Shown: piece by piece, positions 12,016 through 15,576 of the stretch
How positions within the stretch are numbered: position 1 is the first letter of the stretch
Layout: every line of letters begins with the position of its first letter
Notes under the pieces: model-generated
Told to the model about the DNA's origin: nothing
What the model saw: the letters and a program-made list of their open reading frames with translations, nothing else
The model's database searches: none
DNA from: Terriglobales bacterium
GTDB taxonomy: Bacteria > Acidobacteriota > Terriglobia > Terriglobales > Acidobacteriaceae
Assembly: GCA_030038475.1 (NCBI GenBank)
Contig: JASHOU010000131.1
Coordinates: forward strand, 1-64,000
Reading direction: 5' to 3'
DNA: 64,000 bases
Translations under genes and position numbers: made by a program

Positions 12016-13275
12016 TCAGTGAATGGTCTTTGTCTTCCGCGACATGTAATCCATCAGCAAATACTGGCCGAGCGTGTAGGGTGTGGTGAAGTAAGCCTTG
12101 CCGCGGCACATCTGCGTTACTTTCTGCACGAACTGGACCAGGCCGTAATCCGACGCCAGCATGAATGTGTTGATGAGCACGCCAGCGCGTTTGCACTTGG
12201 ACACTTCTTCGAGCGTCTGGCTCACCACTAGTGGGTCAAGTCCAAAAGCGTTCTTGTAGATGCGCGAGTCGTCGAGCGTCAGCGCCGAGGGTTTGCCATC
12301 GGTGATCATGACGATCTGCTTCATATCTTTTCTCTGTCGTTGCAATATCCTCTGCGCCAGGCGTAGCCCTTCGCGCGTGTTGGTGTAATACGGACCGACC
12401 TTCACGCGCGCCAGTTGCGAGAGCGGGACTTCTTCGGCCGAGTCGTGAAAGAGCACCAGCGACAGCGAATCTCCGGGATATTGCGTGCGAATCAGCTGCG
12501 AGAGCGCCATGGCAACTTTCTTTGCCGGAGTGAAGCGGTCTTCGCCATACAGAATCATGGAATGCGAACAGTCAAGCATCAGCACCGTCGCGCAAGAAGA
12601 TTGATACTCGCACTGGTGCACCTGCAAGTCGCTGTATTCGAGATTCAGAGGTAATCCCAGGCCTTCGCGATGGATGGCCGACGAGAGCGTAGCCGTGATG
12701 TCAAGGTTCAGCGTGTCGCCAAATTCATACGGTTTTGCCGCGCCGCTCGACTCAATGCCGGTTGCCATGTCGCGCGTATCGTGGCGTCCGAAACTCGATT
12801 TGCCAAGCGAGCCGAGCAGGTCGCGCAGGGCTTTGAAGCCCAAAAAATCGAGGCTTTTGTCGGTGATCTCGAACCTTGCTTGCTGCTGCGCGTCGCCAAC
12901 CTGCCCGCCAATACTCGACTGCTTTGACAGATCGTGCGGCTGGGCTTGCCAAGGACGATCAATCGAGATGTAATCTTCCTGCTGCATGCGTTCAATCAGC
13001 TTTTCGATCAGTTCTTCGAGTTGACCTTCCATCTGCATCTGCTGCAGCCGGTCGCGCATTTCTTCGTCGAACATTTCGCCATTGAGCAGCGCCTGTTCGA
13101 GCGCGCGGCGCAATTCGTCGAGCGTTTGCTCGCCGTCGCTATTCTGCATCTCATACCAGAAGTTGTCGTTGAATCCGCTCTGAAGGAAATAATCGGAGAG
13201 TGCGCTGAGCAGGCCTTCCATGCTCATTTCGCCGGCAGGGTCGGGAACGTATTTGCTATAGCGGATTCTCTTCAT
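12016..13275 (-). CDS. VWA-domain protein, partner of a MoxR/chelatase-type AAA+ ATPase
   Basis: A 419-residue protein. An acidic Gln/Glu-rich helical N-terminus (ERMQQEDY and preceding residues) leads to a von Willebrand A domain from about residue 228 with the MIDAS motif D235-C-S-H-S, a conserved Thr region ([16 protein letters not shown]) and [17 protein letters not shown]+ pairs act as chelatases or protein-complex remodelling machines. The AAA+ partner is the first gene of this minus-strand unit (14077-15576) and a peroxiredoxin lies between them. The VWA start is only 29 bases after the peroxiredoxin stop. No clear Shine-Dalgarno precedes the ATG at 13275. Confidence 0.85.
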
Positions 13276-13304: not shown

Positions 13305-13973
13305 TCAACGGGCAAGTTCCCGCAACTTCGCAACCGTCTCCGCCGGATCGGTTCGAATCGTATAATCCGCATTCACATCGGCCGCGCGAATAGTCCCTTC
13401 CTTGTCGATCACGTACCGTGCGGGCATCGGCAACCGAAATTCGGGCTCATCGTTAAATCTGTCCAATGTGACGCCGAACGATATGTAAAGCTCGCGCAAA
13501 TAGTCCGGCAGGGTAAACACCAGCCGGAACTGCTCGGCAACCTTCAGGTGAAGATCGGTCAGAATGTCATAAGTCAGGTTCAGTTTCTTGTGCATTGCCC
13601 GCGTGTAACGGTCGAACTCGGGCGTGAGCACCACGATCTGCGCTCCCAAGGCTCTCACCTCTGCATAAACCTGCTGTAGAGCCTCCAGCTCCATGTTGCA
13701 ATAAGGTCACCAGTGTCCTCGGAAGAAGCTGACGACAAGCGGCCCATCGCGCAGCAGATCGCTCGATTTCACCTCCACATGATCCTGATTGAACAATGTG
13801 AAGCTGGGAGCGTGATCCCCAACCTTCAGCGCTCGTCCCTCAATCCCGGTAGCCTTGAGCTCCGCGGTCGCGCGGTGCATCTTCTCGATCGCCTCAGGCG
13901 AGGCAGCCCGCGGACCAGCGCCCGACTCAAACTCTTTCCTGTATGCATCCAGCCGTTCCTGAAGAGTTGCCAT
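13305..13973 (-). CDS. Peroxiredoxin-like selenoprotein candidate (UGA at the peroxidatic cysteine)
   Basis: Read through one TGA, this is a 222-residue peroxiredoxin-like (PRX_like2-type) protein. Residues 50-88 (VGDHAPSFTLFNQDH, then PLVVSFFRGHW) and the part after the TGA (PYCNMELEALQQVYAEVR, then ALGAQIVVLTPE and ARYVIDKEGTIRAADVN) are in the same frame and together form one thioredoxin fold. The family motif is F-Y-R-G-x-W-C-P-Y-C; here the first Cys codon is TGA (13707-13709, residue 89), giving U-P-Y-C. This is the position occupied by Sec in known bacterial selenoproteins. AAGGAGG precedes the ATG at 13973. A mutation or sequencing error to TGA is the alternative. Confidence 0.8.
13649..13693 (-). 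promoter_or_regulatory. Candidate bacterial SECIS element
   Basis: Downstream of the UGA in the mRNA two alternative hairpins are possible. One pairs AGGCUCU (23-29 bases after UGA) with AGAGCCU (52-58), with an upper GCA/UGC stem closing a GGUUUA loop at 36-41. The other pairs UGGAGC (14-19) with GCUCUA (25-30) around a UGGAG loop at 20-24. Both place a G-containing apical loop near the 16-37 base window known for bacterial SECIS elements. The structure lies inside coding sequence, as bacterial SECIS elements do. Folding was done by eye. Confidence 0.5.
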
Positions 13974-14076: not shown

Positions 14077-15576
14077 TCAATTAAAACTTCTCTTCCTTCC
14101 AAACTCCGAGTCATCCGGTTCGAATACTCGCTCTTGTTTTTTTACAGGTTTCTCGCCTGCGGTGAACACGCGCTCCTCGTTGCGGCCGATTTTTTTGTGC
14201 GCGTGCAGACCCTCAAGAATGAACTCGGCCGCCGATACCTGCAACTCCGCGGCGTCTTTCGCGGTCACGCTCAGCTTGCTGAGTTTTTCCAGCAGACCCT
14301 GAATCTGAGTCAAGCCCTCGAGAACTTCCTCGGCTCCGGCATTATCGCTGAGTTGAATTTCGCCACCGAGGTCGAACCACTGCACCACCTGGCTCAGGTT
14401 CACGCCGTGAAGGTAGGAATCGAAGGTCTTAGCGATCGCGGTGCGGATCAATTCACGGCTCACGTGATCCGCGCCTTTCATTTCGCCTTCGTATTCGAGT
14501 TCGAGCTTGCCAGTGATGGCGGGGAGTGCGGCATAGATATCGCTGATGCGCGGCACGATCAATTTTTCGTGATGCGTCAGGGCGCGGCGCTCGGCATTCG
14601 ATACGACATTCTCGATGGCGGAGATCGGCAGGCGCTGGCTCACACCAGAGCGCTTGTCGATCTTCTTGTCGTCGCGCGCGGCAAAGGCGATGCGCTCGAT
14701 CACCTCCTGCACATACTTCGGAATTTGAATCTGGGAGCCGTTGCGGCGAGCGTTTCGATCAAGCCAGGCTTCCTGCGCGGTAATAGCGATGCCTTCTTCG
14801 ACGGTTGCCGGGTAATGAGTGCGAATTTCCGAGCCGATGCGATCCTTCAGCGGGGTGATGATTTTGCCGCGCGCGGTATAGTCCTCGGGATTCGCGCTGA
14901 AGACAATGGCGACATCGAGCGACAGGCGAATCGGGTATCCCTTAATTTGTACGTCGCCTTCCTGCATGATGTTAAAAAGTCCGACCTGAATCTTGCCCGC
15001 GAGATCGGGCAATTCGTTGATGGCAAAAATTCCGCGGTTCGCGCGGGGCAGCAAACCGTAATGCACCGTGAGTTCGCTCGAGAGTTCGTGTCCACCGCGC
15101 GCCGCTTTAATGGGATCGATATCGCCGATCAGGTCGGCGATGGTGACGTCGGGCGTCGCGAGTTTTTCGACGTAGCGATGGTCGGGCGTAAGCCAGGCGA
15201 CCGGCGTGGCATCAGCTTCTTTCACGACCAGCTCGCGGCAGCGGTGGCAGATGGGGGCGTAGGGATTGTCGTGAATTTCGCAGCCTGCGATATACGGCAT
15301 CTGCGGATCAAGCAACGCGGTGAGGGCGCGCAGAATGCGGCTTTTTGCCTGCCCGCGCAAGCCGAGAAGAATGAAATTATGGCGGGAGAGAATGGCGTTT
15401 ACGATCTGTGGCACAACGGTGTCGTCGTAACCTACGATGCCGGGAAAAATCGGGCCGCCGTCGCTGAGCCGCGACATCAAGTTCTCGCGCAGTTCATCTT
15501 TGACGCGGCGTGATGCGAGACGCTCGGCAGTGAAAGGACTTTGGCGCAATTCGCCAAGAGTCCGGGCGAAACTCAT
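14077..15576 (-). CDS. MoxR/magnesium-chelatase-like AAA+ ATPase
   Basis: A 499-residue ATPase. The P-loop is G72-LRGQAKS79, which has Ala where the Gly before Lys is usual. The Walker B region is GIFAINELPDL, with Asn before Glu where Asp is expected, and a sensor-like VAIVFSANPEDYTARGKIIT follows. A C99...H102...C110-HR-C113 cluster between the P-loop and Walker B could bind zinc. RSGVSQRLPISAIENVVSNA resembles the chelatase sensor-2 Arg. The gene is followed by the peroxiredoxin (103-base gap) and the VWA gene, so it probably remodels a metal centre or protein with its VWA partner. GGAGG precedes the ATG. Confidence 0.85.
   Translation of the reverse strand: MSFARTLGELRQSPFTAERLASRRVKDELRENLMSRLSDGGPIFPGIVGYDDTVVPQIVNAILSRHNFILLGLRGQAKSRILRALTALLDPQMPYIAGCEIHDNPYAPICHRCRELVVKEADATPVAWLTPDHRYVEKLATPDVTIADLIGDIDPIKAARGGHELSSELTVHYGLLPRANRGIFAINELPDLAGKIQVGLFNIMQEGDVQIKGYPIRLSLDVAIVFSANPEDYTARGKIITPLKDRIGSEIRTHYPATVEEGIAITAQEAWLDRNARRNGSQIQIPKYVQEVIERIAFAARDDKKIDKRSGVSQRLPISAIENVVSNAERRALTHHEKLIVPRISDIYAALPAITGKLELEYEGEMKGADHVSRELIRTAIAKTFDSYLHGVNLSQVVQWFDLGGEIQLSDNAGAEEVLEGLTQIQGLLEKLSKLSVTAKDAAELQVSAAEFILEGLHAHKKIGRNEERVFTAGEKPVKKQERVFEPDDSEFGRKRSFN

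Follow-up and report, generated by a model that had tools for sequence, protein, structure and literature searches.

This locus raises the question of whether an in-frame UGA within the active-site motif of a peroxiredoxin-like gene is read as selenocysteine (Sec) and, if so, which residue of the active site the Sec replaces. The window, a stretch of 64,000 nucleotides from a Terriglobales bacterium, an acidobacterium of soil, is contig C212 of a draft genome (4.46 Mb, 98% complete, 216 contigs). Reading its open reading frames places the gene on the minus strand, from the ATG at 13973-13971 down to the TGA stop at 13307-13305 (13305..13973), with a product of 222 residues of the Prx-like (AhpC/TSA) type. 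A single in-frame TGA at 13709-13707 (minus strand, 13707..13709) supplies codon 89 in the context VSFFRGHW-U-PYCNMELEA; the plus-strand frame across 13305-13973 is unrelated and carries none of the FFRGHW-TGA-PYCNMEL content. The first-pass annotation had the coordinates, motif and length right and left the strand unstated, and its claim that homologous protein lies in one frame on both sides of the TGA is confirmed by the Pfam match, in which one AhpC-TSA domain (PF00578) spans the codon from residue 51 to 197 (E 1.8e-25). Only AhpC-TSA and Redoxin were matched by the 222-residue protein in Pfam, AhpC-TSA_2 being absent. The partner residue of the UxxC motif, Cys92 (TGC, 13698..13700, minus strand), is invariant in an alignment of 43 sequences and is the sole Cys of the protein. 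The window holds 86 TGA-split frames in which either side spans 60 codons or more, and of these this gene is the one frame examined. No promoter or terminator patterns were found near the gene, and an Rfam scan of the window returned nothing at gathering thresholds.

The conservation of codon 89 was followed through genome collections. The Sec clade comprises 16 distinct orthologues, all from Acidobacteriota; every one carries TGA at precisely codon 89, and none has a further in-frame stop. Thirteen, including the query, are close forms (proteins 68-80% and DNA 65-77% identical to the query), and three come from other families of the phylum at 41-46% protein identity; the named records are metagenome-assembled genomes of Acidobacteriaceae, Ca. 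Sulfotelmatobacter, Ca. Acidiferrales and Terriglobales. A search for homologues with Cys at residue 89, which the first-pass annotation had proposed as a check, yielded 39 further relatives, about 33-45% identical, with TGC or TGT in that column. A maximum-likelihood tree places the Sec forms on one side of a branch with support of 90/83. SelB exceeded its cut-off in each of the 12 Sec-form genomes checked and SelA in 11, the exception being G316, which is 95% complete and has no full SelA. Five genomes in which neither SelA nor SelB exceeded its cut-off (G031, G053, G055, G204 and G676) carry the Cys form only.

The host genome itself contains a complete set of Sec genes, as the first-pass annotation had inferred and had suggested looking for: a tRNA-Sec (68 bits, over its cut-off; called tRNA-SeC with anticodon TCA by ARAGORN), SelA (532.6 bits), SelB (377 bits) and SelD (361 bits). 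The VWA-domain gene downstream of the locus (12016..13275, minus strand) is 91-95% identical in most congeners, and the contig is therefore the genus's own rather than a binning error. As a separate observation, selD (L012, contig C204:62519-63454) has an in-frame TGA of its own, in FRLTESVKAAG-U-ASKLSP, and is probably a selenoprotein gene itself. This TGA stands at the known Sec/Cys place of SelD, in its active site.

A putative bacterial SECIS element lies just downstream of the UGA. Its upper hairpin, UGGAGC-UGGAG-GCUCUA (13677..13693, minus strand), starts 13 nt past the UGA, with the apical loop starting 19 nt past it. Among the 13 close Sec forms an invariant run of 17 nt spans the hairpin, a length reached by none of 2000 codon-column shuffles, and where an invariant residue has a degenerate codon, every sequence uses the same one in four of six cases at +4 to +11 vs one of 77 elsewhere. 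The three distant Sec orthologues retain the hairpin, two of them with a compensatory change of one U-A pair to C-G. It is absent from the Cys forms, in which a mean of 2.7 of the six stem pairs can form vs 5.9 in the Sec forms. In the bSECIS model quoted in PMC13188914, the loop is 3-9 nt long, has a G among its first two nucleotides and follows N1-G-G/U-N-N2, where N1 pairs with N2; the stem is limited to 4-16 bp, the spacing to 16-37 nt and the minimum free energy (MFE) to -7.5 kcal/mol or lower. The hairpin lies within all of these limits, with the loop UGGAG, a stem of 6 bp, a spacing of 19 nt and an MFE of -10.1 to -11.5 kcal/mol, computed over 41-45 nt counted from the UGA; the MFE fold of 60 nt of single sequence, the query's included, often favours other pairings. 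Five of the six stem pairs never vary, which leaves the support from covariation thin, and the case for a SECIS consequently rests on the freezing of codons, the contrast with the Cys forms and the fit to the published model.

Taken together, the complete sel set, the conservation of the UGA, the Cys homologues and the conserved hairpin support the selenoprotein reading of the first-pass annotation, and it is almost certain that UGA 89 is read as Sec by SelB and the hairpin, giving a predicted selenoprotein of peroxiredoxin fold with a U89-P-Y-C92 redox pair. One could imagine an ordinary Cys peroxiredoxin gene that was disabled by mutation or misread in sequencing, given that TGC or TGT, one base away, is found in the homologues closest to the clade but outside it. 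The spread of the same TGA over several genera and families refutes such a pseudogene, which we consider vanishingly improbable; the protein is conserved on both sides of the codon, and the codons of the hairpin are frozen. A lesion or chance is excluded because 15 other distinct orthologues share this TGA, and the earlier judgement that a random lesion was much less likely than Sec is thus borne out. Division into two genes, one for an 88-residue protein that stops at the TGA and one for a 129-residue protein restarting at the ATG at 13694, draws on the fact that both reading frames exist mechanically. This restart was nonetheless rejected as highly improbable: three distant orthologues (L070, L072 and L074) have Leu or Ala in place of its Met, the two halves are jointly predicted to form one confident peroxiredoxin fold, and the Cys homologues read through. 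The open frame past the UGA would also be compatible with insertion of another residue, such as Trp, by code reassignment or suppression. There is next to no chance of this, however, and it too was rejected, since the gene itself terminates at TGA, the genome has the complete Sec machinery, column 89 is Cys rather than Trp in the homologues, and the constraint on the hairpin is limited to the UGA forms.

Which catalytic position the Sec occupies is a different matter. The first-pass annotation placed the UGA exactly at the peroxidatic cysteine, and here the alignments disagree: in profile alignments with PrxQ/BCP (for example the chains 5epf, ...MTPGCTKE, and 2cx3, ...FSPVCTKE), Cys92 aligns with the peroxidatic Cys and U89 with the Thr/Ser of T/SxxC, so that the UGA is not strictly at the peroxidatic position. 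In alignments with ResA, a thioredoxin-like enzyme, U89 matches the leading Cys of CxxC. Arg85, invariant in the family across the 43-sequence alignment, replaces the Pro of PxxxT/SxxC, and the gene shows R85-xxx-U89-xx-C92 in place of the PxxxT/SxxC (TxxU) pattern, in which the peroxidatic residue is Sec or Cys. An AlphaFold2 model (pLDDT 94.6) has the peroxiredoxin fold with U89 directly before a helix, and AhpE and Bcp are its closest structure matches (Z about 21, rmsd 1.4-1.8 over about 150 residues). This likeness is what favours a true peroxiredoxin with Sec as the peroxidatic residue, and U89, which would remain the most reactive nucleophile, might act on peroxides as a reductant. With Pro and Thr/Ser replaced by Arg85 and U89, the peroxidatic column taken by C92, and known Sec peroxiredoxins being TxxU as opposed to the UxxC found here (PMC13188914), we regard that assignment as unlikely. 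The sequence instead argues for a thioredoxin-like active site, U89-P-Y-C92, in a UxxC Prx-like protein. The gene, the conservation of its codons, the constraint on the SECIS, the machinery and the fold were all established computationally.

From these we infer Sec incorporation itself, the attacking atom, the substrate and the reductant, and the UxxC reading could operate as follows. SelB-GTP and Sec-tRNA(Sec) would insert Sec at UGA 89, guided by the hairpin 13 nt past the codon, and U89-P-Y-C92 would then form the active site at the N-terminus of a helix in a thioredoxin/peroxiredoxin fold. The selenolate of U89 would most likely attack a disulfide or a peroxide, with C92 resolving it as an internal selenenyl sulfide, an order of events favoured because the protein has no other Cys. 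Either a protein disulfide or a peroxide may be the oxidant. Thioredoxin or a similar thiol system could subsequently reduce the selenenyl sulfide.

The surroundings of the gene point to how it may have been acquired. Upstream lies a gene for a MoxR/chelatase-type AAA ATPase (14077..15576, minus strand), and downstream the VWA-domain gene; the prx gene interrupts a MoxR-VWA pair whose two genes are neighbours, with no prx between them, in ten congener loci. On the stretch examined, prx was not found beside the VWA gene in eleven congener loci, ten of which have a moxR-type gene within about 150-600 bases of the VWA gene. Where congeners have any form of the gene, it is the Cys form alone, 35-42% identical, and the tree sister of the query is L015, from another group, Ca. 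Acidiferrales (support 99/95). A conserved functional neighbourhood was considered and rejected, since the MoxR and VWA neighbours occur at no other Sec-form locus and the congener pair lacks prx. Because the MoxR- and VWA-type genes adjoin without prx in sister species, the prx gene was probably gained horizontally, and since SelA and SelB are present in the congeners, the simplest reading is that it entered a lineage which already had a Sec system. More tentatively, and with somewhat less than even confidence, we propose an unmodelled, Sec-only subfamily of peroxiredoxin fold that spread in soil Acidobacteriota, in part through horizontal transfer along with its SECIS. In this subfamily Sec would replace the substrate-binding Thr and form an internal selenenyl-sulfide pair with what was once the peroxidatic Cys.

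Several observations concern UGA-containing genes beyond this locus. Two genomes of one related genus have two gene copies each, G322 (L065/L068) and G349 (L062/L069), and all four copies keep both the UGA and the hairpin. The query's own genome encodes a second AhpC/TSA Redoxin protein (L060, contig C86:25011-25229, minus strand) with an in-frame TGA in LEFVRGTW-U-PNC and a perfect TGACTC-AGTTG-GAGTCA hairpin 19 nt past it. L060 is closest to the 'SelL-related redox' model, yet below its cut-off, and is a probable second UxxC Prx-like selenoprotein of this genome. Weaker Prx-like matches with one TGA inside the match occur in many relatives (e.g., G006:C88, G009:C38 and G098:C5), a hint that other Prx-like families containing UGA occur widely across Acidobacteriota.

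The gene is of a kind that annotation pipelines would split at the UGA or label a pseudogene. The clade enlarges the known acidobacterial selenoproteome and supplies Sec and Cys homologues that make a clean set, the SECIS being well bounded. It also presents an instance of a selenoprotein gene apparently gained by a lineage already equipped with Sec machinery.

Among known systems, the closest are the Prx-like thiol:disulfide oxidoreductases (PF00578, UxxC/UxxU; e.g., in Geobacter and Syntrophus), whose UxxC type is listed as a predicted family in a review (PMC13188914). The protein has the AhpC-TSA domain and the UxxC motif of that family, and shares with it Cys homologues, a bSECIS past the UGA and Sec machinery in the genome. 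It differs in that the Acidobacteriota clade has an N-terminal extension of about 45 residues and the motif W-U-P-Y-C, the likeness to the family, whose reference protein is WP_010940744.1, being drawn from family features. PrxU (TxxU; NF040737) has the same fold and Pfam family but carries Sec at another motif position, and the protein scores 25.5 bits against the PrxU model, whose cut-off is 270. The cd02970-type peroxiredoxin-like family (AhpC/TSA family protein) likewise has a UxxC-type Sec position in a Prx-like fold; its reported motif, however, is UxxS, and this motif together with the lack of an AhpC-TSA_2 match in Pfam sets the present protein apart. The ResA/TlpA thiol-disulfide oxidoreductases (CxxC) resemble it in the residue aligned with U89, although at 43 bits vs 170 the protein falls far under the cut-off of that family. 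No NCBIfam model reached its cut-off for the protein, and the subfamily therefore seems to be unmodelled there. It is a new member of the already known UxxC Prx-like selenoproteins and, within them, a distinct subfamily.
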